Shown here one piece after another: positions 6,480 to 37,914 of a DNA stretch of 64,000 bases. Within the stretch, counting starts at the first letter, position 1; each line of letters begins with the position of its first letter. Source of the stretch: Candidatus Aminicenantes bacterium. GTDB taxonomy: Bacteria > Acidobacteriota > Aminicenantia > Aminicenantales > UBA4085. The translations under genes were made by a program, and so were the position numbers. The DNA lies in the NCBI GenBank assembly GCA_026393855.1, contig JAPKZJ010000009.1, forward strand, positions 62,001 through 126,000, written 5' to 3'. The notes under the pieces were generated by a model. That model was not told where the DNA came from, made no database searches, and worked only from the letters and a program-made list of their open reading frames with translations.

Positions 6480-6566
6480 TTTTCAAATAGTGACCGGATT
6501 TTTTGCATTCTCTTCCCCCCGGGCCTTGATGGCCCGGAATCCCCGCTCATTCGCCTGGAGGCGCCC

Positions 6567-20230: not shown

Positions 20231-21184
20231 CTAAACACCTTCTTTCTGCGACGTGCTGACCAGGTGGATCAGCTGGTGGCGGTTGTTCACTTTCAATTTC
20301 CGGTACAGGCTGTAGGCGTGGCTTTTGACGGTGTGGATGGAGATGTGCAGCGCCTCCTCCATCTGCTTGTAGCTCTTGCCGTCGATCATCAGGATCAGAA
20401 TCTCCATCTCGCGGGCGGACAGCCCGTGCTTCTTCTGCAGGGACGGCATGACGACGCCGGCGCCGATGATCTTGCCCAGGCTGCCGGCCCAGGGGATGAA
20501 ATAGGCCTGCAACCAAAACAGGGGGATGAGATTGGTATAAAGGGCCAATAGCCTGACGGCGGTGATATTCCAATAATTGAGCGGGCCCGGATTCAACATC
20601 ACGATCGCCAGATAAACAGGGATGCGAAGGAGGAACAGCCAGGCGAAAGCCCGATTGGCCCGCCGGCGGTCTGGGTCGGGTCCCGCCTTGTTTTCCGCCA
20701 ACATCCGGATCAGCCAGATCGCGGCTATCAGGTTCAGGGGCCAGATGAACAGATTCCAAAAATTGATATAGGGGCTGCGGGGCAGAAAGCCTGGGGAGCG
20801 CATGTCCAAAAAGAAAAGAAGCATCAAGGCGGCCGTAAAAAGGCCCAGGCCCGGCAGGAGCCATTTCGAAAGCTTCTTCCCCCGCAGCCAGGCAATCGTT
20901 TTATATAGAGAGACATACAGGCCCAGGATCAGCAGGGTGCGGAGCGGCCAATCGACCCCCTTGAACCAGGAAAAAAAGCTTGCCGATTGCTGGGGGGTCA
21001 GATTGCTGTCGAAGTAGACCAGCAAAAAGACTTCGAGCTCTATGATGTTGTAAAAGATCAAGTAATACAGGAGGTCCCGGAGGCGGGCGTCGGGGAATCG
21101 CCGCGACTTCTGGTGGAAGATGAGTATAGACCACACTCCGACCATCAGGACGATGAACACGGACAGGACATTGTAGTGTTTCAG
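20231..21184 (-). CDS. Membrane-anchored LuxR-type transcriptional regulator (paralog 1)
   Basis: A 317-residue protein with about seven hydrophobic helices in residues 1-225 and a C-terminal LuxR/GerE helix-turn-helix (LSAREMEILILMIDGKSYKQ, then ISIHTVKSHAYSLYRKLKV). It looks like a one-component sensor that binds DNA from the membrane. The start is set at a CTG (21184) because AAGGAG lies eight bases upstream and the resulting LKHYNVL matches LKHFNVL of the paralog at 27142-28128. The first conventional start is a GTG at 21160. It is divergent from the esterase-like gene, with a shared 42-bp element between them. Confidence 0.85.
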   Translation of the reverse strand: MKHYNVLSVFIVLMVGVWSILIFHQKSRRFPDARLRDLLYYLIFYNIIELEVFLLVYFDSNLTPQQSASFFSWFKGVDWPLRTLLILGLYVSLYKTIAWLRGKKLSKWLLPGLGLFTAALMLLFFLDMRSPGFLPRSPYINFWNLFIWPLNLIAAIWLIRMLAENKAGPDPDRRRANRAFAWLFLLRIPVYLAIVMLNPGPLNYWNITAVRLLALYTNLIPLFWLQAYFIPWAGSLGKIIGAGVVMPSLQKKHGLSAREMEILILMIDGKSYKQMEEALHISIHTVKSHAYSLYRKLKVNNRHQLIHLVSTSQKEGV

Positions 21185-21214
21185 GAGAGAAACTCCTTCT
21201 CACGGGAGGCGGGG

Positions 21215-21243
21215 ATTATATTTCAACCGCCTCCCCGGGGCAA
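21215..21243 (-). promoter_or_regulatory. Promoter of LuxR paralog 1
   Basis: On the minus strand TTGCCC (21238-21243), 17 bases, TATAAT (21215-21220). Confidence 0.5.
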
Positions 21244-21258
21244 TAACGCTCTCGGGGG

Positions 21259-21300
21259 TCGGGAACAGGGATGATTCGGCGAATTCATGCGGTTTCCCGA
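21259..21300. promoter_or_regulatory. 42-bp inverted-repeat element, copy 1
   Basis: It begins with TCGGGAA, carries ATGATTC at positions 13-19 and ends with GCGGTTTCCCGA. The outer arms TCGGGAA and TTCCCGA are inverted repeats. It matches the element at 28230-28271 at 33 of 42 positions with no gaps. It sits between LuxR paralog 1 and the divergent esterase-like gene, ending just before the -35 position of the latter. Confidence 0.7.
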
Positions 21301-21323
21301 TGTCTATTTCCGGCTCCCTTGCG

Positions 21324-21329
21324 TATGAT
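21324..21329 (+). promoter_or_regulatory. -10 box of the esterase-like gene
   Basis: TATGAT starts 24 bases after the 42-bp element. The -35 position (TGTCTA) is poor, as expected of an activator-dependent promoter. The paralogous locus has the same spacing. Confidence 0.4.
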
Positions 21330-21382
21330 TCCGTGACGTCACCGATCAGGTGACCGCGAACGAACCGGAAAACGAGGTAATT

Positions 21383-22561
21383 ATGACTTTCCCGAGATCA
21401 ACGCTGCTCATCTTCCTGACGATCCTGCTCCTGTTCCTGGCCGGGATCAGCTTCGGAGAGCCGACCGCCTCCGCCGACGGGTCGGAAGCGGGGGGCCAGC
21501 CCATCCAGGCCGTCCGGGTCGAAAAAATCGCTTCGGCCAAAGTCGGAGAGACCCGGGAATTCTGGGTCTCCCTGCCTGATGGCTATGCCGATTCCGGCGA
21601 GAGGTATCCCGTGCTCTATATGATGGACGCGGATTTCAACTTCAGCTCCGGCATTATCGGAGGCGTTCGTTTTGCCGCCCTCATGGGGCAGATGCCCGAG
21701 TTCATCATGGTCGGCATCAAGAACACCGACCGCTCGAAGGACATCTTCCCCGAGGTCGTCACTTACCGCGACGGCAGCAAGGACGGGGGCCGGGCCGGCC
21801 AATACCTGGATTTTATCCGCGAGGAGCTGATCCCCCACATCGACAAAAATTATCGGACTGAAAAGTTCCGGGTCCTCTACGGCACGTCCAACACCGGATT
21901 CACCACCGTCTATGCCCTGTTTCGCAATCCCGATACGGCCGACGCCTACATCGCCGCCAGCGCCACGCTGTCCATACCCTTGTTCAGGGCCAAAAGGGAC
22001 GAATGGATCCAAGGCTTCAAGGGCGGCCGGCGCCGGTTGGTGGTGGTCATGGGTGAGAATGACCTGCCCACGGTCTTAAGCCAAAATGGGGCGCTGAAGG
22101 AAGCGATCGATACCCAGGCGCCCCCCGATTTGATCGGCCGTTTCCTGGTCGTCGAGAACGGAGGCCACGTGCCGGTCGATTCGTTGCGGCAGGGGCTGAG
22201 CGCTCTCTTCGAAGGATGGAAGATCGATCTCCCTTTCACTGACGCCACATTTGACGAGATCCGGAAACAGGCGGAACGGCGGGCCGCCAAGTTTGGCGTT
22301 CCGGGCAAGCTCCCCGAGGACGATCTGGCGATACTGGGCCGGAGCCTGTTGGGTGAAAAGAAAGAGCTCCGGGCCGTCGAGGTCCTGCGCTACAGGGCGG
22401 ATCTTTATCCCCGCTCGGCCGAGGCCCAGGTGGCTCTGGGCGATGCCTACCGGCAGAGCGGCCAAACGGCCAAGGCCCGCGAATGCTACGATCGGGCCTT
22501 GATCATCGCGCCGGGGCACGCCGCCGCGACGGCCAAGCGGAAAGAGCTCGATTCCAAATGA
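21383..22561 (+). CDS. Secreted alpha/beta-hydrolase (esterase D/IroE-like) with C-terminal TPR
   Basis: A 392-residue exported protein. A hydrophobic signal segment covers residues 4-22. Residues ~45-290 resemble the putative esterase family (SLPDGYADSGERYPVLYMMD, HIDKNYRTEKFRVLYGTSNTGFTTVYAL, VVENGGHV). The nucleophile elbow is GTSNTG rather than the usual GxSxGG, and the late histidine in GGHVP fits the triad. The C-terminal ~80 residues form one or two TPR-like repeats (AEAQVALGDAYRQSGQTAKA). ATG 21383 was preferred over GTG 21350 because GAGG precedes it and it opens directly into the signal peptide. It is divergent from LuxR paralog 1. Confidence 0.78.
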   Translation: MTFPRSTLLIFLTILLLFLAGISFGEPTASADGSEAGGQPIQAVRVEKIASAKVGETREFWVSLPDGYADSGERYPVLYMMDADFNFSSGIIGGVRFAALMGQMPEFIMVGIKNTDRSKDIFPEVVTYRDGSKDGGRAGQYLDFIREELIPHIDKNYRTEKFRVLYGTSNTGFTTVYALFRNPDTADAYIAASATLSIPLFRAKRDEWIQGFKGGRRRLVVVMGENDLPTVLSQNGALKEAIDTQAPPDLIGRFLVVENGGHVPVDSLRQGLSALFEGWKIDLPFTDATFDEIRKQAERRAAKFGVPGKLPEDDLAILGRSLLGEKKELRAVEVLRYRADLYPRSAEAQVALGDAYRQSGQTAKARECYDRALIIAPGHAAATAKRKELDSK

Positions 22562-23160
22562 GAGAAAGACATTGGCTTGATGCCGGAACCGCCGTTCCGG
22601 TCGTTTTTTTCACTACGACGGTCCTCTGCGGGCTGGTCCAGGGAAACTACAATCATCTTTCCAGGCAGGTCAGCGAACTGGGGACGATCGGCACGAATTC
22701 GCAATATCTGTTTGCGGCGGGTCTCGTTCTCAGCTCGTTCTTGAGTATCCTCTTCATCGCCTGGCTTCTCGGCGCCTGCCGGCGGCTCCAATTGAGCGTC
22801 TGGCCTGTTTGGCCGATGTTTGCTTTCTCGGTTTCCATCGCCGGCGCGGCGATGTTCCCGCTGCCCTTGCGCATGCACCAGATCATGGGCAGCCCCGTGT
22901 TCTTGCTGCTCTTATCGCCTCTCCTGGGCCTCATTTTATGGCCGAAGAACCGGCTGGCGGCGAATATCCGGTGGATGTCGGTCTTAAGCCTCCTGATCAT
23001 GGCCCTGGGCTTTTTGGCCTATTTCCCCGACATCCTGGCCTCCTATCCCGGATTGAAGCAACGCTTCTTTCACGCCGGCTGGGCGATCTGGTTCGTCTAT
23101 TTAAGCCGGGCCTTCCGCCGGGCTCTCGAGAATCAGCGGATCGAGGCGGGAAGGCCATGA
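22558..23160 (+). CDS. DUF998-like integral membrane protein
   Basis: A 200-residue membrane protein with about six hydrophobic helices. NHLSRQVSELGTIGTNSQ after the first helix matches the DUF998 family, whose function is unknown. The start ATG overlaps the preceding stop (ATGA), showing translational coupling with the esterase-like gene. A longer frame upstream lies inside that gene and is not conserved in character. Confidence 0.75.
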   Translation: MRERHWLDAGTAVPVVFFTTTVLCGLVQGNYNHLSRQVSELGTIGTNSQYLFAAGLVLSSFLSILFIAWLLGACRRLQLSVWPVWPMFAFSVSIAGAAMFPLPLRMHQIMGSPVFLLLLSPLLGLILWPKNRLAANIRWMSVLSLLIMALGFLAYFPDILASYPGLKQRFFHAGWAIWFVYLSRAFRRALENQRIEAGRP

Positions 23161-23228
23161 AAATCGTCGTCATCCTCAACTCGATACTGCCGATGGAATT
23201 AGCCGCCCGGGCGAAAGCCAAACCATAA
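23157..23228 (+). CDS. Possible 23-residue small protein
   Basis: An ATG overlapping the stop of the DUF998 gene (ATGA) opens a 23-codon frame, MKIVVILNSILPMELAARAK plus three residues. Its end is 11 bases before the Tat-signal gene. The hydrophobic beginning looks like the first strand of a Rossmann-like protein, so this may be a truncated gene rather than a functional peptide. Confidence 0.25.
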   Translation: MKIVVILNSILPMELAARAKAKP

Positions 23229-23239
23229 AGGAGATCATC

Positions 23240-23761
23240 ATGGAATTGCAAAAAAGTCGGCGTCGTTTTTTGAAGGATTGCGCGAAGATGGGCGGAACCT
23301 GCTGCGCGCTTCTGGCCTGCCATCGGCTTCTGCCGGCCGAGGAAGGCCTGCAAAGCCCGAAGCCCATCGATCTGGCGCCGCTGTCCTATTGCGGCATCCC
23401 CTGCGTCAAGATCTGCCCGCTGTACAAAGCCACGCAGGAAAACGACGTCCAGATGAAGAAGACCCTGTACGAACGACAGGAGATGAAGAAGAAATTCGGC
23501 TTCGATTTCGATCCGGACAAGGTCGTCTGCTACACGTGCAAGCCGGGGGACAAGCCCAAAAAAGTCGGCATGGACACGTGCCCGGTCCGCCAATGCGCCT
23601 TGGCCAACGGTGTGGAATCCTGCGTCCAGTGCGCGAACCTGGACGCCTGCGATAAGGAATACTGGAAAAAGTGGCCGCAGCAATATGCCTCCACGAAATA
23701 TATCCAGGCCCGCTACCGGACCCAGCCGGGCGCGGTGATCAAGGGAGGCAAGGCTCGCTAG
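23240..23761 (+). CDS. Tat-signal DUF3795 cysteine-rich protein
   Basis: A 173-residue protein with a twin-arginine-like N-terminus (RRRFLKDCAKMGGTCCALLA). The body matches DUF3795: YCGIPCVKICPLYKATQEND, CYTCKPGD, CPVRQCALANGVESCVQCANLDAC. The many cysteines suggest a metal centre, perhaps an iron-sulfur cluster or zinc; this is inference. GGAG precedes the ATG. Export through Tat would fit a cofactor loaded in the cytoplasm. It belongs to the cassette between the two membrane LuxR regulators. Confidence 0.82.
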   Translation: MELQKSRRRFLKDCAKMGGTCCALLACHRLLPAEEGLQSPKPIDLAPLSYCGIPCVKICPLYKATQENDVQMKKTLYERQEMKKKFGFDFDPDKVVCYTCKPGDKPKKVGMDTCPVRQCALANGVESCVQCANLDACDKEYWKKWPQQYASTKYIQARYRTQPGAVIKGGKAR

Positions 23762-23879
23762 TCAAGATATAGAGATCGTCAATTCGCATTTGAACTCGTG
23801 CTCGCCGTCCGCCGTTGGGCGTCATAAGATGAAAACGAACGGCATCAGAGTGACGAAGCGTCAATTTAGGAGAATAACA

Positions 23880-24509
23880 GTGAAATCCGCAAGTCTGCCA
23901 AAAACAATTCTAATTTTCACGCTCGGTTTTCTGTCCCTGGGCACCATGTTCGCCCAGCCGCCGTCCAAAGACGCAAGCCCTTCCGACAAGTGCTTTGTCG
24001 GCAGCTCGGCTTTTGTTTTGGGCAATTTGGCTCCCGATCCTCCTTCCTTCTACCAGCTGAATATCGGGTATCGGATCACGTCTAAAGACGTCATTTCGCT
24101 GGAGGCCATCACCTGGACCTACAAGGCTCCTTTGGGAATTCCTTACGGGCCGTCTTGGGGAGATGCCGGCGAAAATTACCCGGGAAGCATTCGCGAATAT
24201 GGCATCGGCATGACGTATCAGAGATTCTTGTGGAAGGGCTTGTACGCGTCCCTGCAGGTCATCCCGTTCAAAAGAATCTATCGGGATATGGACGATAAAA
24301 CCATCCAGAAGGGATTTCAGCTGTTTTCGACGCTCCGCATCGGGTTTCAAATTCCCTTATTCAAGAATAGATTTTTCTTGGAGCCGTCCATCGCTGCCAC
24401 ATTTTGGCCTGTCAGCACAAACGTGCCGCCAAGCTTTGCGGCAAAAGACGCCAAGTGGAATAGGTTCTTTCTCTTTGAGCCTGGATTGCACTTCGGCCTT
24501 AATTTTTAA
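23880..24509 (+). CDS. Hypothetical exported beta-barrel-like protein
   Basis: A 209-residue protein from a GTG with AGGAG seven bases upstream. Residues 1-25 are a signal peptide (ILIFTLGFLSLGTMFAQ). The mature part has alternating strands such as FYQLNIGYRITSKDVISLEA, YGIGMTYQRFLWKGLYASLQ and LRIGFQIPLFKNRFFLEPSI, ending in FGLNF with a terminal phenylalanine. This pattern resembles small outer-membrane barrels. Base composition is visibly more A/T-rich than in neighbouring genes, so it may be a later acquisition. A longer version from ATG 23829 is possible but lacks a good ribosome site. Family not recognised. Confidence 0.65.
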   Translation: MKSASLPKTILIFTLGFLSLGTMFAQPPSKDASPSDKCFVGSSAFVLGNLAPDPPSFYQLNIGYRITSKDVISLEAITWTYKAPLGIPYGPSWGDAGENYPGSIREYGIGMTYQRFLWKGLYASLQVIPFKRIYRDMDDKTIQKGFQLFSTLRIGFQIPLFKNRFFLEPSIAATFWPVSTNVPPSFAAKDAKWNRFFLFEPGLHFGLNF

Positions 24510-24511
24510 AT

Positions 24512-26521
24512 ATGCGCACCGTTCAGATACTCAATTTTCAAAAAAAAGGACTCCTGCGTATCATGGCTAATAAGGAATTCAGTAACTCGCCCAAAAACCG
24601 CCGGCTTTGGAATACAGGCGTGATTGCCGTTGTTTTTGCGGGACTTGCCCTCGTCTACCTTGACCCTGGTTTTGCGGAAGCGGGCATGAAGGGGAACAGG
24701 AGCGGTTTGACTCTATCCGGGCCGCAATCGACCCCTTCGGCTTCAACGGCGGCTCCCTTACCCAAAGGGCCTTACTTCGGCCAGCGGCTGCCGGGGGAGA
24801 TCCCGGAATTGTTCGCCCCCGAATTTCTTTCGGCCCGCTTCGGTTTCGTCGCCCGCATCGCGTTCGCTCCGGACGGCAACGAGTGCTTCTTCACCGTGAC
24901 GGACGCCGCCTATGCGCACCCGAAAATCTATGGCAGCCGAAAAGTCGGGGACACCTGGAGCGAGCCGGCGATACCGGCTTTCGCCGATCCGCAATGGATC
25001 AATCACGAGCCATTCTTTTCCCGGGACGGCGGCAAAATCACCTTCACCTCTAATCGGCAGACGCAGTCCGTTACGAACAAAAGGGACTTCTGGGTGACCG
25101 AGCGGACGCTAAATGGATGGAGTGAACCCAAGCGCCTTCCTCCCCCCATCAACTCCGATCATACGGAGTTCTTTTATTCGCAGACGGCGGATGGAACGGC
25201 GTACTTCTGCTCCGACCGCCCCAACGGGATTGGCGCATTGGACATCTATCGAGTTCGCCCGGGGGCGGAACCGACCGCGCCGGCGGAAAATCTCGGAGCC
25301 CCGGTGAACGCTAAATACTATAATGGGGATCCCTGCATCGCTCCCGACGGGCGCTTTCTGGTGTTCGGGACCGTTCGCCCGGAGGGGCGCGGCGGCATGG
25401 ATCTTTATGTGAGCTTCAGAGATGGGCCCAATGGCTGGACCGTACCCGTCAGTCTCGGCGAGGGGTTCAACACGCCTGCCAATGAATACGCGCCTTCTTT
25501 TTCTCCGGACGGGCGCTTTCTGTTCTTTGCCCGGCACGACGGCCAGCAGGCCAAGCTCTATTGGGTGAAGATGTCCGTTTTAGATCGGTTTCGCGCGAAG
25601 GCCTCGTCTCTGGCCCCAAAACCGGCGGAGCCGCTAAAGTCGACCGGCGCGACGGGCGATGGCCAAGTCAAAGGAGCGTATCTGGGGCAAAAACCTCCCG
25701 GGGACACGCTTGAAGTATTTGCCCCGGGAATCGTCTCCCTGGAAGACAGGCTTGAAGCCTACCCGACGTTTTCCGCGGACGGCCGGGAGCTGTTTTTCTC
25801 AGTCGTGAATGCGGCTTGGACGGCGGGGGAGATTCTTTATACAAGACTCAAGGATGGGGTTTGGAGCAAACCCGAAAAAGCTCCTTTTTCGGCAGGCTCC
25901 TCCATCAATTGGGAATCGTCCCTGTCTCCCGACGGGAAGCAGTTGTTCTTCGCTTCCAACCGGCCGCCCTCTTCCGCGGCGGCGATCGATCTCTGGATGG
26001 TCGAGCGGGTTGCGGAAACCGCATGGTCCGATCCGGTCAGGCTTCCCGCCCCGATCAATTCCGCCGCGGATGACGGGTCCGCCTGCGTGACGAACGACGG
26101 AACTTTGTATTTTCATTCTTCTCGCGGCGGCGGGATCGGAGGTTCCGAGCTGTACCAGGCCCGGCTGATCGATCACGCGAATGCCCGGGTCGATAGCCTG
26201 GGGGGCGTCATCAAGACCGGCCCCAAGGAAAGCGAGCCGTATATGGCTCCCGACGAAAGCTATCTGATCTTCATCTCGCAGACGCGGCCGGGCGGAAAGG
26301 GCGGGTGGGATTTGTGGATCAGCTTTCGGAAGACGGACGGCTTGTGGACGGCTCCCGTGAACATGGGTCCGGAAATCAATACGGCCGCCGACGAGTACGG
26401 TCCGCGCGTGACCCCCGACGGGAAATATCTCTTTTTGACCCGGGAAGTCCGGGGCCGGTCGATGGATATCTATTGGGCTTCGGCGCGGATTATCGAGCGT
26501 TTACGAGCCAATCATGGCTAA
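24512..26521 (+). CDS. WD40-like (PD40/TolB-type) beta-propeller protein with internal duplication
   Basis: A 669-residue protein with one hydrophobic segment near residues 33-55 acting as signal or anchor. Two homologous halves follow, starting PYFGQRLPGEIPELFAPEF and AYLGQKPPGDTLEVFAPGI. Each contains repeated PD40 blades such as FSRDGGKITFTSNR, IAPDGRFLVFGT, FSPDGRFLFFAR, LSPDGKQLFFASNR and VTPDGKYLFLTR. Proteins of this type act as periplasmic or surface scaffolds; no catalytic residues are evident. It starts two bases after the previous gene. ATG 24563 is an alternative start that shortens the N-terminus by 17 residues. Confidence 0.82.
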   Translation: MRTVQILNFQKKGLLRIMANKEFSNSPKNRRLWNTGVIAVVFAGLALVYLDPGFAEAGMKGNRSGLTLSGPQSTPSASTAAPLPKGPYFGQRLPGEIPELFAPEFLSARFGFVARIAFAPDGNECFFTVTDAAYAHPKIYGSRKVGDTWSEPAIPAFADPQWINHEPFFSRDGGKITFTSNRQTQSVTNKRDFWVTERTLNGWSEPKRLPPPINSDHTEFFYSQTADGTAYFCSDRPNGIGALDIYRVRPGAEPTAPAENLGAPVNAKYYNGDPCIAPDGRFLVFGTVRPEGRGGMDLYVSFRDGPNGWTVPVSLGEGFNTPANEYAPSFSPDGRFLFFARHDGQQAKLYWVKMSVLDRFRAKASSLAPKPAEPLKSTGATGDGQVKGAYLGQKPPGDTLEVFAPGIVSLEDRLEAYPTFSADGRELFFSVVNAAWTAGEILYTRLKDGVWSKPEKAPFSAGSSINWESSLSPDGKQLFFASNRPPSSAAAIDLWMVERVAETAWSDPVRLPAPINSAADDGSACVTNDGTLYFHSSRGGGIGGSELYQARLIDHANARVDSLGGVIKTGPKESEPYMAPDESYLIFISQTRPGGKGGWDLWISFRKTDGLWTAPVNMGPEINTAADEYGPRVTPDGKYLFLTREVRGRSMDIYWASARIIERLRANHG

Positions 26522-26550
26522 AAAGACGCCCTAAACAGGAGGAAAAGGAT

Positions 26551-27132
26551 ATGAAAAGAAACGAATTTCTGAAAGCTTGCGGCGCGGGCCTCTGCGGCTG
26601 CGGTGTCGTGGGCCTCCTGGCCCCGCTGGCGGCTTCGGCCGAAGGCGCGGACGGACAGACAACAGCCGCCTCGGCCGCCCCCTCCGAGGTCGACTTGTTG
26701 AAGCGGCAGCTCGACGGCGCGCAAGAGCGCTTCGCCGAATTGGTGACCATCATGGGGGAAAACCTCGACGGCGCCACCCGCGACAAGATCCTGACGCGCC
26801 TGGGCCGCGAGTGCGCTCAGGCCTACCGCCCGCTTTTCGAGAAGTACCGCGGCGACCTGCCGGGTTTTTTGGCCAAGATCAAGATGGCCTGGCTCGAAAG
26901 CGCCGAGTACGATGAAAAAGCCGGCATCCTGCGCACCGTCGGTAAGCCCGCTCCCTGCGCGTGTCCCCTGGTCAAAGTCGGCCGAACCCCGGCCGATTTC
27001 TGCAACTGCACGCTCGGCTGGAACCAGGAGGCCTTCTCGATCGTGTCGGGAAAGCCGGCGACGGTCGAGATCGAGGAGACGGTCCTGCGCGGCGGAAAAA
27101 GGTGCAGCTTCCGCATCGGCCTCAAAGGGTGA
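26551..27132 (+). CDS. Exported cysteine-motif protein, unknown function
   Basis: A 193-residue protein with AGGAGG before the ATG. The N-terminus (MKRNEFLKACGAGLCGCGVV) is a signal with features of a Tat signal but lacking the second arginine. A helical segment (~50-125) is followed by a cysteine cluster: CACPLV near residue 132 and FCNCTLGW near 149, then ATVEIEETVLRGGKRCSFRI. The C-x-C-P, C-N-C-x-x-G-W and late cysteine resemble uncharacterised cysteine-motif families with a 4-vinyl-reductase-like ending. I cannot assign a function. It is the last gene of the cassette and is convergent with LuxR paralog 2. Confidence 0.65.
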   Translation: MKRNEFLKACGAGLCGCGVVGLLAPLAASAEGADGQTTAASAAPSEVDLLKRQLDGAQERFAELVTIMGENLDGATRDKILTRLGRECAQAYRPLFEKYRGDLPGFLAKIKMAWLESAEYDEKAGILRTVGKPAPCACPLVKVGRTPADFCNCTLGWNQEAFSIVSGKPATVEIEETVLRGGKRCSFRIGLKG

Positions 27133-27141
27133 CTCCGGCCG

Positions 27142-28128
27142 TCACGCCGGGCGCGCCGGACGATCGGTAGGCGCGGCCGCTCCCGTCCCCCCGTAGACGC
27201 CGATCTGGTGGATCAGCTGGTGGCGGCTTTTGACGTCCATCTTACGGTACAGGCTGTAGACGTGGCTCTTGACGGTATGGATGGAGATGTGGAGGGCGCT
27301 CTCGATCTCCTTGTAGCTCTTGCCGTCGATCATAAGCTCCAGGATCTCCATTTCCCGGGCCGACACGCCGCGGGCTTGCCCTATTGCGGCGAGGTTGAAC
27401 TGCTCTCCAAGGACCTTGCCCAGGCTGCCCGCCCAGGGACCGAAATAAGCCTTCAGCCAAATGCCCGGCAGGAGATTCGTATAAAGGCCGAGCAGCTTGG
27501 AGAGCGCCAAGGCCACGAATACCGCTCCGCCCGGGTTCCAGACGCTCAGGGCCAGATGCAAGGGATAGCGCGCCAGGAACAGCAAGGCGAAGGCACCGTC
27601 GACCCTCCGCTGTCCCGGATCGGCGGCCTTCCGGCTTTCCGCAAGCAGCCGGCCGAGCCAGAACATGTCGAGGAGGCCCAGGGGCCAGACCAGGGCGAGC
27701 CAAAACGTGTTCTCCGGTCTATGGGGGGTCAAGGCCGGGTATCTAAGCGCCAGGAAGTACCAGGCTATCACCGCGACGCCGAAAACCCCTACGACGGGCA
27801 CGACCCATTTGGGCAAGTCCTTGTCCCGGCGCCGGAATATGGCCCGGTAAAGTGAAATGTGGACTCCCACGGTGAGGGCGGTCAGGACGGGCCATTCGAC
27901 GAATTTGTACCAGAAGGAGAGGCTCGACAGCTGAGCCGGCGTGAGATTGCTCTGTCCGTAAGTGCTGAAGAAAACGGCCAAGGCCAACCCGTTGTAGAAG
28001 ACCAGGAAAAGCCCCAGGTTATCGAGCTTGGACCCGGGGAAGCGGCGGGACCTTTGGCGGAACTCGACGACGGCCCAGACCCCGACGATCAGGATAAGAA
28101 CCGTGGTCAGGACGTTGAAGTGCTTCAA
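27142..28128 (-). CDS. Membrane-anchored LuxR-type transcriptional regulator (paralog 2)
   Basis: A 328-residue paralog of the regulator at 20231-21184, with the same order of about seven membrane helices and a C-terminal LuxR helix-turn-helix (VSAREMEILELMIDGKSYKE, then ISIHTVKSHVYSLYRKMDV). Shared membrane-part motifs include KHFNVL, VGVWAVVEFRQRSRRFPG, SNLTPAQ and WAGSLGK. The start is placed at TTG 28128 because it aligns with the paralog and lies after the promoter; an ATG at 28185 would add 19 poorly conserved residues and overlap the -35 box. It is divergent from the MDR oxidoreductase. Confidence 0.85.
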   Translation of the reverse strand: MKHFNVLTTVLILIVGVWAVVEFRQRSRRFPGSKLDNLGLFLVFYNGLALAVFFSTYGQSNLTPAQLSSLSFWYKFVEWPVLTALTVGVHISLYRAIFRRRDKDLPKWVVPVVGVFGVAVIAWYFLALRYPALTPHRPENTFWLALVWPLGLLDMFWLGRLLAESRKAADPGQRRVDGAFALLFLARYPLHLALSVWNPGGAVFVALALSKLLGLYTNLLPGIWLKAYFGPWAGSLGKVLGEQFNLAAIGQARGVSAREMEILELMIDGKSYKEIESALHISIHTVKSHVYSLYRKMDVKSRHQLIHQIGVYGGTGAAAPTDRPARPA

Positions 28129-28155
28129 GGCGCAAAATTCCAAGTGACGATATGG

Positions 28156-28185
28156 ATTATAGGGGAACAGACGCGAACGTGACAA
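28156..28185 (-). promoter_or_regulatory. Promoter of LuxR paralog 2
   Basis: On the minus strand TTGTCA (28180-28185), 18 bases, TATAAT (28156-28161). Confidence 0.45.
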
Positions 28186-28229
28186 GACCGCCGAGAAGAG
28201 GCCGCTCCCCGGGGCGCCCGCCCCCGGCC

Positions 28230-28271
28230 TCGGGAATCGGTATGATTCTTCAATCTCACGCGGTTTCCCGA
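28230..28271. promoter_or_regulatory. 42-bp inverted-repeat element, copy 2
   Basis: The same architecture as the element at 21259-21300: TCGGGAA at the left, ATGATTC at positions 13-19, GCGGTTTCCCGA at the right, the same length without gaps. It lies between LuxR paralog 2 and the divergent MDR gene and directly abuts the -35 box of the latter. Confidence 0.7.
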
Positions 28272-28300
28272 TTGCCGGACGCCTTGCCGTCCCCTATGAT
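28272..28300 (+). promoter_or_regulatory. Promoter of the MDR oxidoreductase gene
   Basis: TTGCCG (28272-28277), 17 bases, TATGAT (28295-28300). The -35 box begins at the base after the 42-bp element, and the -10 spacing equals that at the paralogous locus. Confidence 0.5.
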
Positions 28301-28378: not shown

Positions 28379-29422
28379 ATGGCGCCGACTTCCTCAACCA
28401 TGAAAGCGATCGTCTATACCGAATTTGGTTCCCCCGACGTCCTCCGGTTCGAGGAGACCGCTCGGCCGATGCCCAAACCCAACGAGATCCTGGTCCGGAT
28501 CCGGGCCGCAAGCGTCAATTTCGGGGATACCATGGCCCGGAGCTTCAAGGCCGTCACGCCCCGTGGATTCAACATGCCCTTCTTGTTCTGGCTGATCGCG
28601 AAGGCGAGCATCGGATGGAACAAGCCCCGGATCCGGATTTTGGGAAACGAGTTCGCCGGGGACGTCGTCTCGGTCGGCCGGGACGTCAAGCGCTTCAAGC
28701 CCGGCGATCAGGTGTTCGGCTATACCGGCCAACGCTTCGGCGCTTACGCCGAGTTCCTGTGCCTGGCCGAAAGCGCCCCGGTGGCCCATAAGCCCGCCAA
28801 CCTGACCATCGAGGAGGCCGCCGTCATCCCCTACGGGGCCATGATGGCCCTGCCCCTTCTACGCAGGGCGAACCTCCAGCCGGGGCGGACGATCCTGATC
28901 AACGGGGCCAGCGGCGGGATCGGCTCGGCCGCGGTGCAGATCGCCAAGCATCTCGGGGCCGAGGTGACCGCGGTTTGCGGAGGGCCCCGGCTGGAATTCG
29001 TCCGAGCCCTGGGGGCGGATCGGGCGATCGATTACGAGGAACAAGACTTCACCCGGAACGGCGAGACCTACGATGCGATCTTTGACATCCTGGGCCGGGC
29101 GCCCTTTTCGCGCTGCCGGCATTCGCTCAAGGCCCGCGGAGTTCTCCTCTACGCCAGCTTCAAGACGCGGCATCTCCTGGCGATGATTCGGACGTCCCTT
29201 TCCGGCGGCCTGCGGGTCGTCTGCGCACTCGCGCCTGGAAGCCTCAAGGATTTGCTCGTAGTTAAAGAACTGGTCGAGGCCGGGAAGATCAAGGCGATCG
29301 TCGATAGGCGTTTCCCCATGGACCGCGCCGCCGAAGCGCACAGATACGTCGAGACCGGGCGCCGGAGGGGGGCTGTGGTCATCATTATGGCCCCCGGCAC
29401 CGAAGGAGAGGGAAACGGCTGA
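28379..29422 (+). CDS. Zinc-less MDR family NAD(P)H-dependent oxidoreductase (quinone reductase-like)
   Basis: A 347-residue medium-chain dehydrogenase/reductase. The catalytic domain begins MKAIVYTEFGSPDVLRFEE; GNEFAGDVVSVGRDVKRFKPGDQVFG is the family signature. The cofactor domain has INGASGGIGSAAVQIAKHLGA near residue 180, a typical NADP-binding A-x-x-G-x-x-G pattern. The usual catalytic zinc ligands are missing, pointing to a quinone- or enone-reductase-like enzyme. Start 28379 gives a six-base spacing from AAGGAG; ATG 28373 and 28400 are alternatives. It is divergent from LuxR paralog 2 and a likely target of it. Confidence 0.87.
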   Translation: MAPTSSTMKAIVYTEFGSPDVLRFEETARPMPKPNEILVRIRAASVNFGDTMARSFKAVTPRGFNMPFLFWLIAKASIGWNKPRIRILGNEFAGDVVSVGRDVKRFKPGDQVFGYTGQRFGAYAEFLCLAESAPVAHKPANLTIEEAAVIPYGAMMALPLLRRANLQPGRTILINGASGGIGSAAVQIAKHLGAEVTAVCGGPRLEFVRALGADRAIDYEEQDFTRNGETYDAIFDILGRAPFSRCRHSLKARGVLLYASFKTRHLLAMIRTSLSGGLRVVCALAPGSLKDLLVVKELVEAGKIKAIVDRRFPMDRAAEAHRYVETGRRRGAVVIIMAPGTEGEGNG

Positions 29423-29522
29423 TTTCCGCTTCGATCCCGAGATTCGGTCCGCTCTTAATTTGCACATATTTTGTCAGCCTATTTGTCGCGGGCTTCGTAT
29501 TCATATTCGGAGTGTGACCACC

Positions 29523-31256
29523 ATGCGCAGATCATATGCCTTTGGAGCCGTCGTCCTATTCATCCTCGCAACCGCTTTTTCCGGGCTCGTTGCCCAGACT
29601 CCGAAGCCGGTCAACAATGCCGGCGAAAATGTCCTGGTCAAGGTGGAGAAGCCGATCGCAGCCCCCGAGTCTTATCGGACCGGGTTCTCCGTCATTACCG
29701 CCCGGGATAGCCGGGTCTTGCTCTCCTATCTGTCATCGGACCTGCTGGAAGGTCGGGAGAGCGGATCCCGCGGCTATCGGCTGGCCGCCGAATACGCGGC
29801 CTCCCTCTTCGCCCTCTGGGGGCTCGAACCGGCCGGCGATGCGGGGAATGGCGCCGGGCGCGACTATTTGCAGGAAGTCGTGATGAAAGAGTATACCGGC
29901 CTGGGATGTACGGCCACCTGGTCGGCTCGCGAGGGGGAAAGCTCGGGAGGCCGGACTTTTCATGAAGGGGTCGATTTGGAGAACTATTACCGGAACCGCA
30001 TTCCGGAAGTCGTTTCCGCCCCGGTGGTCTTCGCCGGCTACGGCCTCAGCGAACCGTCGGCCGCCTACGACGATTTCGCCGGGCTCGAACTGAAAGGCAA
30101 AATCGTCATGCTCCTCGACGATGTCCCCGGTCGGGGCAACCCGGCTTCTCCGTTTGCGAAGGGGGAGGCAGGGGAGAAGCCGAGGGCCGTGATCTGGTTC
30201 GACGGCCTCAAAAAAGCGAACGCGGCGGCCGCGCGGGGGGCCCGGGCCGTCTTGGTGGTCAGGAATTCGCTCTCCGCGGGCGACGTTTACGCCGAAATGG
30301 GGCCCCCGGCGCCGAATGATGCGCGCCCGATCCTCCACGAACCCAGTCGTCTCGTCACGCTGCCCGGAGCCAAGCGTGACGGGGGCGCCATCTTCATCTC
30401 CCGCGAAATGGCCGACTTTATTCTGGCCTCGTCCGGCCGGACCATCGCTAGCCTGAAGGCGGAAATCGAATCCCGCTGGAAGCCGGCCTCGTTTGAAATC
30501 CCCGGCGGCGCACTGACCATTCGCAACAGCGCTGAAAGCGAGCGAATATTGCGCTGCTATAACGTCATCGGCGTGATCCCGGGGAGCGATCCACGGCTGA
30601 AAAACGAGGCGGTGGTCATCGGCGCCCATTTGGATCACCTGGGCCAGCGGGGCGATTATATCTTCAACGGGGCCGACGACAACGGCAGCGGCGTCACCGG
30701 CACCCTGGAGATGGCCCGGGCCGTCGCCTCCCTGCCGCGCAAGCCGAAACGGTCCATGGTCTTCTGCCTATGGACAGGGGAGGAGCTGGGCCTGCTCGGC
30801 TCGGCTTTCTATCTCCAACACCCTGTTTTCCCGCCGGCGCAAACGGTCGCTTATCTTAATCTCGATATGATCGGGCGGTCCCCCGACGATTCGAGCTTCA
30901 AGGCCCGGCTGAAACGACTGAAGGTTCCCGCCGAAGCCCAAAGCAGGATCGCGGCCGACAATTTCGCCGTCGTCGCGTTCCCGGCCGGGCAGGGGTTGGG
31001 GGAGATCCTGAGCCGCGCCGATCAGGCCGTCGGCCTCGATCTTTGGCCCCAGGCCGAGGCGATCGCCAAGACTTCGGGCCTGGTCAGCGATTACGCTTCC
31101 TTCGCCGAGGCCCGCGTCCCCTATCTCTCTTGGATGGGGGGAACGCACGAGGATTATCACCAGACCAGCGACAGCCTCGATAAAATCAACCTGGAGCGGA
31201 TGGCCAAGATCATCCGTTTGACCTATCTCAGCGCCCTGACCCTGGCCGATCAATAG
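29523..31256 (+). CDS. Secreted M28 family aminopeptidase with PA domain
   Basis: A 577-residue exported zinc peptidase. The signal peptide covers residues 1-24 (ending GLVAQ). A PA-like insert follows (PVVFAGYGLSEPSAAYDDF, ELKGKIVMLLDD). The catalytic core carries all M28 ligands: GAHLDHLG, GADDNGSG, GEELGLLGSAF, LNLDMIGR and the final histidine in THEDYHQTSDSLDKI. The catalytic glutamate is the first of GEE. It should trim peptides in the periplasm or outside. It precedes two tricorn-like proteases, giving a peptide-degradation neighbourhood. Confidence 0.92.
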   Translation: MRRSYAFGAVVLFILATAFSGLVAQTPKPVNNAGENVLVKVEKPIAAPESYRTGFSVITARDSRVLLSYLSSDLLEGRESGSRGYRLAAEYAASLFALWGLEPAGDAGNGAGRDYLQEVVMKEYTGLGCTATWSAREGESSGGRTFHEGVDLENYYRNRIPEVVSAPVVFAGYGLSEPSAAYDDFAGLELKGKIVMLLDDVPGRGNPASPFAKGEAGEKPRAVIWFDGLKKANAAAARGARAVLVVRNSLSAGDVYAEMGPPAPNDARPILHEPSRLVTLPGAKRDGGAIFISREMADFILASSGRTIASLKAEIESRWKPASFEIPGGALTIRNSAESERILRCYNVIGVIPGSDPRLKNEAVVIGAHLDHLGQRGDYIFNGADDNGSGVTGTLEMARAVASLPRKPKRSMVFCLWTGEELGLLGSAFYLQHPVFPPAQTVAYLNLDMIGRSPDDSSFKARLKRLKVPAEAQSRIAADNFAVVAFPAGQGLGEILSRADQAVGLDLWPQAEAIAKTSGLVSDYASFAEARVPYLSWMGGTHEDYHQTSDSLDKINLERMAKIIRLTYLSALTLADQ

Positions 31257-31443
31257 AGAAAAAGCCCAAACGGCGGCCTCGATCTTTTCCGGCGTCGCCA
31301 ACCCGGAGGCTGGAACGCCCGTCTTTACTAGGGACCGCGACGGCCCTCTCGCGGCGATCGATTTGCCAATAGGGAGCCGAGCGGTGTCTATAGACGACAA
31401 TAAGACGAATCTTTTCGAAAAAATTATAGAAAGGTGATGCGCG

Positions 31444-34400
31444 ATGAAAATAATTTTAGTTCTGTTGTTCGAACTCCTGGTTGTCTTTGGAATGGTTCAG
31501 GCTCAGGTCGACGCGCGGATGATGCAAAACCCTGACGTTTCGAAGACGCAGATCGTCTTCACGTATGGCGGAGACCTATGGGTCGTACCCAAGGAGGGCG
31601 GAACGGCTTTGAAATTGAGCTCTTCGCCGGGCCAGGAACTCTTCGCCAAATTCTCTCCGGACGGCTCGGAGATCGCTTACAGCGCGACCTACAAAGGCAA
31701 CGGCGATGTCTATGTCATCCCCGCTTTGGGCGGCGCTCCCGCGCGGGTGACCCACCATGGGATGAACGACAGGTTCATCGATTGGTATCCGGACGGAAAA
31801 AACTTGCTCTACGCTTCGTCCATGGCCAGCGGCAGGCAGAGCTTCAGGCAATTTTATAAAGTGGGTAAAAGCGGCGGCCTGCCCGAAAAGCTCCCCATCC
31901 CTTACGGAGAGACGGCATCGCTGTCGCCCGACGGAACGAAAATCGCCTATACCCCGGCCAGCCAGGCTTTCCGGACGTGGAAACGATACCGCGGCGGCTG
32001 GCAACCGGATATTTGGATTTACGATCTGTCGAAGAATGCGGCCGAGAACATCACCGATAGCCCTTCCGACGACGAATTCCCGATGTGGTCCGGAAACAAA
32101 ATCTACTATCTCTCGGATCGCGGTCCGGACTTGCGGACCAACATCTGGTCGTACGATCTTTCCGCGAAAAAGCATGAACAAATCACGAAGTTCACGGATT
32201 TCGACATCCACTTCCCATCTCTCGGTCCCTCCGACATCGTTTTCGAGAAAGGCGGCCGGCTGTATCTGTTGAGCTTGGCCGATGAAAAATATCGCGAGGT
32301 CGCGATAAAGCTGGTGACCGACGAGATCACGCTCATGCCTAAAGTCGAAAAGGTCGCCGACCTCATTCAAAACTGCGGACTTTCCCCTGACGGCAAGTGC
32401 GCCGTTATCGAGGCCCGGGGCGAGATCTTCTTGATCCCGGCGGAAAACGGTCCCCTCTTCAATCTGACCAAGAGCTCCGGAGTGGCCGAACGTTTTCCGG
32501 CTTGGTCGCCGGATGGGAAATCCATCGCTTATTGGAGCGACCGGTCGGGCGAATACGAATTGACGATCAGGGACATGGAGAAGCCCGCCGAAGAAAAGAA
32601 GCTCACCACCTATGGGCCGGGCTTTCGCTATCAATTGTTCTGGTCCCCCGACAGCAAGAAGGTCGCCTTTGTCGACAAAGCGATGGAGATTTTTATTTTT
32701 AATCCGGGAACCGGCGAGACCACGAAGGTGGATAAAGGACTGTACCTCTTTGCCGGCGCTTTGGATGGATTCAGCGTGAGCTGGTCCTCCGACAGCCGGT
32801 GGATGGCCTATTCCAGAGGCCTGGAGACGCGGAGATCGGCCATTTTTATATATGACCTGAAAGAGAATCGATTGCATCAGGTGACCTCAGGCTATAACAA
32901 CGACGCCAATCCCGTTTTTGATCCCGACAGAAAATATCTCTATTTCGCGACAAACCGGACGTTCAACCCGCTGCATAGCGGCATGGAGTTCACCTTCTTT
33001 TACGCCAACTCGACGAACATCGCGGCCGTGCCGTTGACCGAAGACATCGCCTCTCCTTTAGCTCCGAAGAACGATATGCCGGCCGTCAAGAAGGACGAGC
33101 CAAAGAAAGAGGAGCCGGCAGCAAAAAAGGACGAGAAGGCCGTAAAGGATGCGAAAGAGGTCAAGATCACTCTTGAGAATTTCGAGAGCCGGCTGGTCCT
33201 CCTGCCCGCCGCTCCCGGCAATTACGGCGCTTTGGCGGCGGTTTCGGGCAAGGTGATCTATCATCGGCAGCCGAACACGGGCGCATCCGCGTCCGTTCAG
33301 CCGGTCGTCTTTTATGATCTCGAAGAACGGGAAGAGAAGACGATCATTGAGGATGCGGAGCTCTTCACGATCAGCGCCGACGGCAAGAAGATGCTGGTGG
33401 GGAATAACGGGGCGTTTTCCGTTTTGGACATCGCTCCGGGCCAGAAGATGACGAAGATGATGCCGACCGCCCAGACGGAGATGACGATCGATCCGCGCGC
33501 GGAATGGAAGCAGATCTTCAATGACGTCTGGCGATTCGAGCGTGATTTTTTCTACGATCCGAACATGCACGGACTCGATTGGAAGGCCGTCGGCGAGCGC
33601 TATCAGAAGCTTATCGACGACTGCGTCACGCGATGGGACGTCAGCTATTTGATCGGAGAATTGATCGGCGAGCTGAGCTCCTCGCATACCTACAACTCGG
33701 GAGGCGATACGGACGAGGCGACGCCGAGAAACGTGGGCTATTTGGGGATCGATTGGGAAATTGCAGACGGCGCGTATCGGATTAAAAAGATCATCGACGG
33801 AGCTCCTTGGGATTCCGAGGTCCGTTCCCCTCTCCGGATGCCCGGGCTGAAGGTCAAGGAAGGCGACTACATCATGGCGGTGAACGGAGAGCTTCTCGAT
33901 GTCCGCCAAGATCCATGGGCGGCTTTCGAAGGGCTGGCCGGCCGAACGATCGAGCTGACCATCAACGGCAAGCCGGGCTTCGAAGGGGCTCGAAAGATCG
34001 TGGTCAAGACGCTCGGCGATGAAACGCGCCTCAGATATCTGGCCTGGGTCGAATCCAACCGGAAGCGCGTTGAAGAAGCGACCCAAGGGAAGATCGGCTA
34101 TATCTACGTGCTCAACACCGGGACCGACGGACAATCCGAATTGATCCGACAGTTAGCCGCCCAGTACAAGAAGGACGGACTGATCATCGACGAGCGGTTC
34201 AACGGCGGGGGACAGATCCCCTACCGCTTTATCGAACTGCTCGATCGGAAACCGCTGGCGTTCTGGGCGGTGCGGGACGGAATGACGTGGCAAGTGCCTC
34301 CCCTCGCCAATTTCGGCCCCAAGGTCATGCTGATCAACGGCTGGAGCGGGTCCGGGGGCGACGCCTTCCCGGACTTTTTCCGGAAAGAAAAACTGGGCCC

Positions 34401-34686
34401 GCTCGTCGGGATGAGGACCTGGGGCGGCCTGATCGGCATAACCGGTTCGCCCAGCTTGATCGATGGCGGGACGGTCACGGTGCCGACGTTCCGAATGTAT
34501 GACCCGGACGGAAAATGGTTCAAGGAAGGCCACGGCGTCGATCCCGATATCGAGGTCATCGACGACCCCGCCCAATTAGCTAAGGGCGTTGATCCGCAGC
34601 TCGAACGGGGGATCCAGGAAATCCTGAAGCTCCTGGAGAAGAATCCGCCGGTCAATCCGAAACAGCCGGCTTACGAGAAGAGGTGA
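31444..34686 (+). CDS. Tricorn protease-like S41 peptidase, copy 1
   Basis: A 1080-residue exported tricorn homolog. Residues 1-21 are a signal peptide. Two beta-propellers occupy roughly residues 30-540 (repeated PDG blades such as FSPDGSEIAYS and WSPDSKKVAF). A lysine/glutamate-rich linker (~540-580), a helical C1-like region, a PDZ domain (~760-860) and the S41 core follow. Candidate catalytic residues are the histidine in SSSHTYNSGG and the serine in GWSGSGGDAFPDFF; NGGGQIPY precedes it as in the family. Tricorn proteins cut oligopeptides made by upstream proteases; here the protein appears periplasmic. It is followed after 45 bases by a paralog. Confidence 0.92.
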   Translation: MKIILVLLFELLVVFGMVQAQVDARMMQNPDVSKTQIVFTYGGDLWVVPKEGGTALKLSSSPGQELFAKFSPDGSEIAYSATYKGNGDVYVIPALGGAPARVTHHGMNDRFIDWYPDGKNLLYASSMASGRQSFRQFYKVGKSGGLPEKLPIPYGETASLSPDGTKIAYTPASQAFRTWKRYRGGWQPDIWIYDLSKNAAENITDSPSDDEFPMWSGNKIYYLSDRGPDLRTNIWSYDLSAKKHEQITKFTDFDIHFPSLGPSDIVFEKGGRLYLLSLADEKYREVAIKLVTDEITLMPKVEKVADLIQNCGLSPDGKCAVIEARGEIFLIPAENGPLFNLTKSSGVAERFPAWSPDGKSIAYWSDRSGEYELTIRDMEKPAEEKKLTTYGPGFRYQLFWSPDSKKVAFVDKAMEIFIFNPGTGETTKVDKGLYLFAGALDGFSVSWSSDSRWMAYSRGLETRRSAIFIYDLKENRLHQVTSGYNNDANPVFDPDRKYLYFATNRTFNPLHSGMEFTFFYANSTNIAAVPLTEDIASPLAPKNDMPAVKKDEPKKEEPAAKKDEKAVKDAKEVKITLENFESRLVLLPAAPGNYGALAAVSGKVIYHRQPNTGASASVQPVVFYDLEEREEKTIIEDAELFTISADGKKMLVGNNGAFSVLDIAPGQKMTKMMPTAQTEMTIDPRAEWKQIFNDVWRFERDFFYDPNMHGLDWKAVGERYQKLIDDCVTRWDVSYLIGELIGELSSSHTYNSGGDTDEATPRNVGYLGIDWEIADGAYRIKKIIDGAPWDSEVRSPLRMPGLKVKEGDYIMAVNGELLDVRQDPWAAFEGLAGRTIELTINGKPGFEGARKIVVKTLGDETRLRYLAWVESNRKRVEEATQGKIGYIYVLNTGTDGQSELIRQLAAQYKKDGLIIDERFNGGGQIPYRFIELLDRKPLAFWAVRDGMTWQVPPLANFGPKVMLINGWSGSGGDAFPDFFRKEKLGPLVGMRTWGGLIGITGSPSLIDGGTVTVPTFRMYDPDGKWFKEGHGVDPDIEVIDDPAQLAKGVDPQLERGIQEILKLLEKNPPVNPKQPAYEKR

Positions 34687-34731
34687 AGGATCGCTTCATC
34701 CGACGATCGATTCGCTTATAAGGGAAAGACT

Positions 34732-37700: not shown

Positions 37701-37914
37701 GGACTATGCCCTGATGGACCGGGGGGTGGTCACATATCCCGCGGAGGGCAAGAAGACCGTCCGCGGCGAGGATTTCGTCGAGAACGCCGGAGTTTCTCCG
37801 GATATCAAGGTGGCGAACCGGCCGGAGGATTTCGTCCGGGGCATAGACAGGCAGCTGGAGCGGGGCGTCCAGGAGCTCCTGAAGCAACTGGCCAAAACGG
37901 GAAAGGATCATTGA
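34732..37914 (+). CDS. Tricorn protease-like S41 peptidase, copy 2
   Basis: A 1060-residue paralog of the preceding gene with the same order: signal peptide (residues ~1-27), PD40 propellers (LPKFSPDGEQIAFTAEFEGN, WHPDGTHILFRS, LSPDGKKVIVG), C1-like helices (YRQEWRQMFTDAWRIQRDFF), PDZ (~770-860) and S41 core. The catalytic histidine is in AELGQSHVEING and the nucleophile serine in NEWAESGGENFASI, so both copies look active. The second copy lacks the lysine-rich linker and is more GC-rich. The start may be ATG 34732 or 34741; both give a signal peptide. Tandem retention suggests different peptide preferences. Confidence 0.92.
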   Translation: MCIMKNKKLIMGALIITWAALSAAAAETRLLRYPDIHKDQIAFCYGGDIYTASVNGQNVRRLTSLPGEELLPKFSPDGEQIAFTAEFEGNKEIYVMSAHGGKPRRLTFHPADEYVVDWHPDGTHILFRSNGSSFSYRFNRLHSVPVQGGLPAVLEPAEADLSSYNDQGDQIAFCRTSLETLPWKRYRGGAGPSIWTFDFKTHKSELVVDDASINHHPLWIGDAIYFVSDRGEAKEQNLWAYDCRSRAVRQLTFYKDWGVKWPSRGGGKIIYENEGRLCVYDVKTGRISAIRIEIGLPDGFLTPTVKNVQDKISSVALSPDGKKVIVGARGELFGLDPEKKITRNLTETPGVNERAAVWSPDGRSYAYISDRSGEEQIYVQSEEGGGPPVQVSRCEPSKLGGLNWSPNGNKIGYSDKRAAFYVIDLETRETRKIFFNEYFASERYVAAAWSPDSRWLAYEVGNPNWCSSIFLYSFDADRAFRVTDESSSAYNPRFDPDGRYLFWIADCAVEVADSYGDEDHHMLNPSKIVVATLQRDRLSPFSPGGGGVPGPGSPAAFPIRIDVDGLGQRITTLPVANSNYRDLTARSGRLIYRSEPDGGEPAVKIFDLAGPKESTLLNAGYAVYPAARADKLLYSGSGRVGLLDIRADQKAGDGLIDLSGLRMTVDYRQEWRQMFTDAWRIQRDFFFDEKLRGVDWEAMKRKYEVFLPDVASRRDLNSLIEDMFAELGQSHVEINGGEGPSLPVHKNGLLGIDLEFDRAHRLYRITRIYRGRNWDADRVSPLTLPGLNIKSGDYLLAIDGTPLEERVNPDSLLVDKAGENTVLTIHDKPVWAGARTMTVKPASYSARQGDLLRYNDWVLSNMDAVNRASGGKIGYLHIPDTYYPGIEAFFRYFYAQIHKEGLIVDIRFNSGGYSPYWMIERLNRSMIYYSRMPYGKAPIKEPGPGFFGLKVCLINEWAESGGENFASIFRLLKSGPLVGRRTAGNLASARDYALMDRGVVTYPAEGKKTVRGEDFVENAGVSPDIKVANRPEDFVRGIDRQLERGVQELLKQLAKTGKDH

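Follow-up and report, generated by a model that had tools for sequence, protein, structure and literature searches.

Which protein reads a 42-bp DNA element that occurs twice in one gene neighbourhood, each time beside a gene for a membrane-embedded LuxR regulator, and which genes does it control? The question is raised by a stretch of 64,000 nucleotides from Candidatus Aminicenantes bacterium (assembly GCA_026393855.1, contig JAPKZJ010000009.1, positions 62,001 to 126,000; hereafter the window), in which the two regulator genes (luxR) are divergent from an esterase gene and a dehydrogenase gene. LuxR regulators embedded in the membrane have been recognised as a kind only recently, and little is known of their operators. 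Here we report that the element is a conserved palindrome, which stands at a fixed distance from the -10 box of the gene downstream and accompanies the regulator across related genomes. We consider it highly likely that this palindrome serves as operator to a small family of one-component regulators in the membrane, which would activate local genes. The two elements and the promoters that they abut are as follows.

21259 to 21300, + strand: predicted operator 1, a 42-bp palindrome (pattern, profile, palindrome and shuffle tests)
21301 to 21329, + strand: target promoter 1, weak -35 box TGTCTA abutting the element, 17-bp spacer, -10 box TATGAT at 21324-21329 (spacing kept in orthologues)
28230 to 28271, + strand: predicted operator 2, a 42-bp palindrome (pattern, profile and palindrome tests)
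28272 to 28300, + strand: target promoter 2, -35 box TTGCCG abutting the element, 17-bp spacer, -10 box TATGAT at 28295-28300

A preliminary description of this locus had given the coordinates of the two elements, an ungapped match of the elements at 33 of 42 positions with outer arms TCGGGAA and TTCCCGA, and a TATGAT box starting 24 bases past each element (23 nucleotides between), all of which were present on recheck. In 3000 dinucleotide-preserving shuffles the best ungapped 42-bp match between the two gaps was 27, and 33 was never reached. The entire element is palindromic, with 26-30 of its 42 positions self-complementary (equalled by 0-11 of 20000 shuffles), and besides the outer arms it contains an inner inverted pair, RTGAWTC..GAWTCAY. 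Both halves of seven distinct 42-bp sequences yield the half-site TCGGGAAWCSGYRTGAWTY, in which T1, C2, G3, G4, G5 and A7 together with T14, G15 and A16 are invariant (14 of 14 half-sites), while C9 and G11 are kept in 13. The centres of TCGGGAA, RTGAWTC, GAWTCAY and TTCCCGA are spaced by 12, 11 and 12 bp, about one helical turn each, an arrangement that would let two dimers bind the same face of the DNA.

Within the source genome (3.68 Mb in 144 contigs, 95% complete), the pattern TCGGGAAN26-30TTTCCCGA occurs exactly twice, and a position-specific model, trained on ten sites, found no third site across the whole sequence. A protein search with regulator 1 recovered exactly two full-length membrane-LuxR genes, each adjoining an element. 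The same pairing extends to relatives: a search with regulator 2 of 142 genomes of the class found a close relative of its type in five, with two genes in the source genome, and an independent search for the DNA pattern found eight sites in exactly those five genomes and none in the other 137, with zero matches to the reversed pattern. The chance of such an exact match is 1 in C(142,5), or 2e-9, with genomes counted as independent. In genus g6, four of 13 genomes have both element and regulator and nine have neither (1 in 715); because these nine congeners lack both, the match does not come from shared ancestry alone. Within the element the eight sites have identities of 0.78-0.85 to one another, as against 0.25-0.39 in the 60 bp upstream, and the surrounding gene order is shuffled between genomes. 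Neither genome-wide nor class-wide was the element found scattered away from membrane-LuxR genes. It is very probably the binding site of these regulators, and the earlier proposal of an operator specific to them gains support from this co-occurrence.

The regulators of G220, G275, G444 and G446 are 71-73% identical to regulator 2, and those of G149, G481 and G487 42-45%, the latter three being of the regulator 1 type at about 50% identity; G418 has the one remote relative of regulator 2 among the class genomes. (Six of these genomes carry a second name: L048 is G444, L050 is G275, L051 is G446, L052 is G220, L049 is G149 and L047 is G487.) Between the regulator and an esterase gene, G149, G481 and G487 have diverged 43-bp palindromes resembling TCAGGAATTCGCATGATTT-N(4-5)-AAATCA..ATTCCCGA, followed after 23 nucleotides by TATCAT, TATCAT and TATTAT, respectively. 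A phylum-wide pattern search recovered three sampled carriers, besides matches in G106 and G124 that have two mismatches and no inner arms, are about as frequent as matches to the reversed pattern used as control (one genome) and were set aside as chance. Weak additional matches in G481, considered as a possible wider regulon, lie inside coding sequence and were likewise treated as chance.

To which promoter does the element belong? The target -35 hexamer starts at the first base past it and the -10 box 24 bases past. With the sites of relatives included, the -10 box starts 24 nucleotides past the element at 8 of 11 sites, 25 at two and is unclear at one, despite differing target genes. Target -35 boxes are poor (TGTCTA, TAGCCG, TTGCCG), while the luxR boxes are near-consensus and form separate promoters (TTGNCN-N17/18-TATAAT), whose -35 lies at a variable 7-44 bp from the element; the element overlaps neither set of -35 and -10 boxes. 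In G275 a distance of 3.4 kb separates the element from the regulator gene; the element precedes a cluster gene there, and luxR retains a TTGCCA-N18-TATAAT promoter without it. Because of this displacement, and of the separate luxR promoter at variable distance, we assign the element to the target promoters: it is their predicted operator and not that of luxR, and a link to the regulator's own promoter gives way, since the element follows the targets. The fixed -10 spacing, the placement in G275 and the conservation of the element over its flank together point to an activator site, with the regulator made constitutively. Its position had been likened to that of a class II activator, and its edge does lie at the -35 box, but with its centre near -56/-57 and its proximal half near -46 the label is only approximate.

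The regulators and their promoters occupy the following positions.

20231 to 21184, - strand: membrane LuxR regulator 1, seven predicted transmembrane helices and a C-terminal GerE helix-turn-helix (Pfam GerE 3.7e-15; orthologue alignment and tree)
21215 to 21243, - strand: regulator 1 promoter, TTGCCC 21243-21238, 17-bp spacer, TATAAT 21220-21215 (10/12 match; TATAAT kept in all orthologues examined)
27142 to 28128, - strand: membrane LuxR regulator 2 (GerE 4e-16; AlphaFold mean predicted local distance difference test (pLDDT) 85.9, seven helices of transmembrane length and a helix-turn-helix; positive-inside, N-out/C-in)
28156 to 28185, - strand: regulator 2 promoter, TTGTCA 28185-28180, 18-bp spacer, TATAAT 28161-28156 (11/12 match)

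Both proteins fall in the LuxR/GerE helix-turn-helix superfamily (55.7 and 58.8 bits; Pfam gathering cutoff 23.5). The start of regulator 1 is probably a CTG at about 21184 (LKHYNVL...), upstream of the GTG at 21160 of the listed open reading frame, because orthologues conserve the N-terminus KH(F/L/Y)NV; this start also completes the first helix. The AlphaFold model, from a 17-row alignment, has seven long helices and a helix-turn-helix (mean pLDDT 85.9, predicted template modelling score 0.75), and successive loops alternate in charge, with 5, 5 and 4 lysines plus arginines facing one side of the membrane and 0-2 facing the opposite side, which predicts an N-out, C-in topology. The GerE domain and the predicted helices thus support the earlier description of a seven-helix membrane sensor fused to a LuxR domain. 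Profile searches of the proteins matched no known sensor domain and no autoinducer-binding profile, only GerE and weaker helix-turn-helix-like or chance profiles. A fold search of the PDB ranked seven-transmembrane receptors first, with E 0.011 and a TM-score of about 0.45 by query; the similarity to G-protein-coupled receptors is not significant, and these matches likely reflect a generic seven-helix bundle. Carriers have SIHTVKSH as the core of the recognition helix, with SIHTIKSH in G481, and the helices of regulators 1 and 2 differ at one position (SIHTVKSHAYSLYRK/SIHTVKSHVYSLYRK).

The palindrome, its fixed geometry to the target -10, its conservation, its co-occurrence with the regulator and its relocation with a cluster gene are seen in the sequences themselves; from them we infer a mechanism, including binding by the regulator, its oligomeric state, activation over repression and the kind of ligand. 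A sensor domain, predicted to have seven helices and an N-out/C-in topology, is joined directly to a LuxR/GerE domain for DNA binding in the cytoplasm, and the regulator gene would be transcribed from its own near-consensus promoter. The signal would be extracytoplasmic or membrane-soluble. The operator would be bound probably by a pair of dimers, one per half of about 21 bp (TCGGGAA-N5-RTGAWTC), and the bound regulator would touch RNA polymerase at the -35 box next to it. Local genes would thereby be activated, mostly those of exported hydrolases (an esterase, Tricorn-like and M28 peptidases, a DUF3795 protein) and a dehydrogenase.

Other accounts of the element have to be weighed. The regulator might bind it and yet repress the targets or its own gene, as some LuxR-family proteins do, the more so as the element usually stands within 7-44 bp ahead of the luxR -35; we regard this as unlikely, because the element is clear of the -35 and -10 boxes of target and luxR alike, the poor target -35 boxes are typical of activated promoters and the luxR boxes are near-consensus, and the distance is fixed to the target but variable to luxR, which in G275 has no element. 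Another transcription factor, a sigma factor or a nucleoid protein might instead occupy the site and control both regulator and cluster, given that the element falls within the luxR upstream region in most genomes and that the case for the regulator as binder is built on sequence comparison. Such a general factor would leave further genomic sites, of which none were found; presence and absence of the element match those of the membrane LuxR across the 142 genomes, including the nine congeners with neither, and two distant homologs (L033, L107) have palindromes of like design in the corresponding position, so that we consider another binder quite improbable. Inverted repeats can also form hairpins, and the shuffled gene order would fit a mobile or repeat element, but an action in RNA (terminator, leader or riboswitch) or a repeat origin is very improbable: the element lies upstream of the target -10 and hence is not in the mRNA from that promoter, it has no Rfam match, it occurs in 1-2 copies per genome and always in this cluster, and its -10 spacing is fixed across diverged sequence.

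Several points weigh against an operator of the membrane regulators as activators. Only eight genomes, distant homologs aside, are carriers, and in part they are related, which leaves the counts not fully independent. Site 2 of G444 has decayed arms and no clear -10 box at the expected place, 42 bp exceeds the site of a single LuxR-type dimer, the regulon search covered one genome per species, and no such palindrome was recognisable at the homologs L006, L017, L022 (G005), L042 and L043.

The two regulators are only 49-50% identical, and in the tree regulator 2 groups with four g6 proteins (100/100) while regulator 1 falls outside, its nearest rows being among g19 proteins; identities and tree together exclude a recent tandem or local duplication. 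The duplicated one-component system of the preliminary description therefore does not hold as a recent local copy, regulator 2 being closer (72-74% identity) to proteins from another family of the order. Because it groups with the g6 proteins and apart from regulator 1, either the two are old paralogs or one was acquired. The operator of regulator 1 matches those of regulator 2 and g6 at 30-33 of 42 positions and g19 operators at 26-29, and because of this resemblance the data suggest that both operators are held alike as both regulators use both. With operators so close in sequence, and a single position telling the recognition helices apart, each regulator probably uses both sites.

Most of the predicted targets belong to a conserved group of genes for exported hydrolases, which a dehydrogenase gene joins. 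In the window they and their neighbours are:

21383 to 22561, + strand: target gene 1, exported putative esterase (PF00756) with TPR (Pfam; orthologue behind the element in G149, G481 and G487; another esterase behind G446 site 2)
22558 to 27132, + strand: rest of the cluster, namely a DUF998 membrane protein, a DUF3795 protein of twin-arginine translocation (Tat) type (23240-23761), a predicted secreted protein, a PD40 protein (24512-26521) and a cysteine-rich Tat-type protein (26551-27132) (Pfam; G481 has a similar set as a single run behind its element)
28379 to 29422, + strand: target gene 2, zinc-type alcohol dehydrogenase/quinone oxidoreductase family, ATG 28379 behind AGGAG (Pfam PF08240/PF13602; orthologue behind G444 site 2)
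29460 to 37914, + strand: M28 peptidase and two Tricorn-like S41/PD40 peptidases, same-strand (Tricorn family members directly behind the element in G220 and G446)

Directly behind the element stand an esterase (window site 1, G149, G481, G487 and G446 site 2), a dehydrogenase (window site 2 and G444 site 2), a Tricorn-like peptidase (G220 and G446 site 1), a DUF3795 Tat-type protein (G275) or a membrane protein (G444 site 1). In relatives the regulator genes are divergent from cluster genes. The two neighbouring Tricorn-like genes at 31444-37914 encode PD40, PDZ and S41 domains, and the second is closer to the gene directly behind the G220 element. Homologs of the cysteine-rich Tat-type and dehydrogenase genes form one same-strand run behind a single regulator in G481, and regulator 2 may therefore have been inserted into an older cluster in the window. 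Regulator 2 and its element sit here between the cysteine-rich Tat-type gene and the dehydrogenase gene (20231-28185).

Does the design reach beyond this family? Among the upstream regions of other membrane-LuxR homologs, L033 (G023) and L107 (G418) are divergent from ATP-binding cassette transporter ATPase genes, and their gaps contain 42/43-bp palindromes with arms TAGGAAACC/GGTTTCCTA and TAGGAAACC/CCTTCCCA, respectively, followed at once by a -35 box (TTGTTA or TTGTCT). Both have a KNH, not KSH, recognition helix and a different inner motif. A Bacteroidales homolog, L053, has SIHTVKSH and the inner core GTATGATTTTGCCAAAATCATAC in its gap. This divergent gap holds a near-perfect inverted repeat at 6499-6540, AAAGTATGATTTTGCCAAAATCATACTTT, which shares the inner core of the Aminicenantia operator. 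Another homolog, L041 (G386), has a 22-bp palindrome, GATTCGGACTTTGGTCCGAATC, in the interval that precedes the divergent gene. Because L033 and L107 share the design while the five homologs named above show nothing similar, a general operator design across the wider family is suggestive, not established. We can put forward only tentatively, as something short of probable, a distinct class of single-protein seven-transmembrane receptor/transcription factors in Aminicenantia and a Bacteroidales relative, which would read a signal in the membrane and use a palindrome of about 42 bp ending exactly at the -35 box, with an inner motif that depends on the recognition helix (RTGATTT for KSH, other cores for KNH at L033 and L107) and the design kept.

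Comparative genomics thus supplies a base-resolution candidate operator, its geometry and a target set for a seven-helix variant of these regulators in an uncultured lineage; with such an operator, binding, cross-talk between the paralogs and ligand screens can be approached directly, using synthetic DNA and an ordinary host. In the open-access literature we found neither this operator nor LuxR regulators with seven helices described, though such a description may exist elsewhere. Among known systems, quorum-sensing LuxR/TraR proteins likewise combine a GerE-type helix-turn-helix with a palindromic operator (the lux box) near the -35, but the present proteins are without their autoinducer-binding domain, and the operator, at 42 bp, has another sequence. 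The closest solved GerE relatives are LiaR and VraR of the NarL family (4wt0, 5hev; E 1e-21 to 5e-19), which have a cytoplasmic phosphorylated receiver and a separate histidine kinase, whereas the present proteins have no receiver. The 7TMR-DISM proteins are also seven-helix bacterial receptors with an intracellular signalling output, yet their profile gave no match here to E=5, and their large extracytoplasmic N-terminal domain is absent. In Eggerthella lenta and other Coriobacteriia, DadR, HcdR and CadR are LuxR regulators with 10-12 transmembrane helices that deletion identified as ligand-dependent activators (PMC9734109); a text search of that paper found no operator sequence. They share with the present proteins an N-terminal multi-helix membrane domain, a C-terminal LuxR helix-turn-helix and a gene beside enzyme genes, which in the Coriobacteriia are those under its control, and differ in helix number (10-12, as against seven predicted here), phylum and targets (catechol dehydroxylases). 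The 12-helix LuxR activators of Eggerthella are the nearest precedent, to which the present regulators are alike by anatomy and comparable in the helix-turn-helix domain only.

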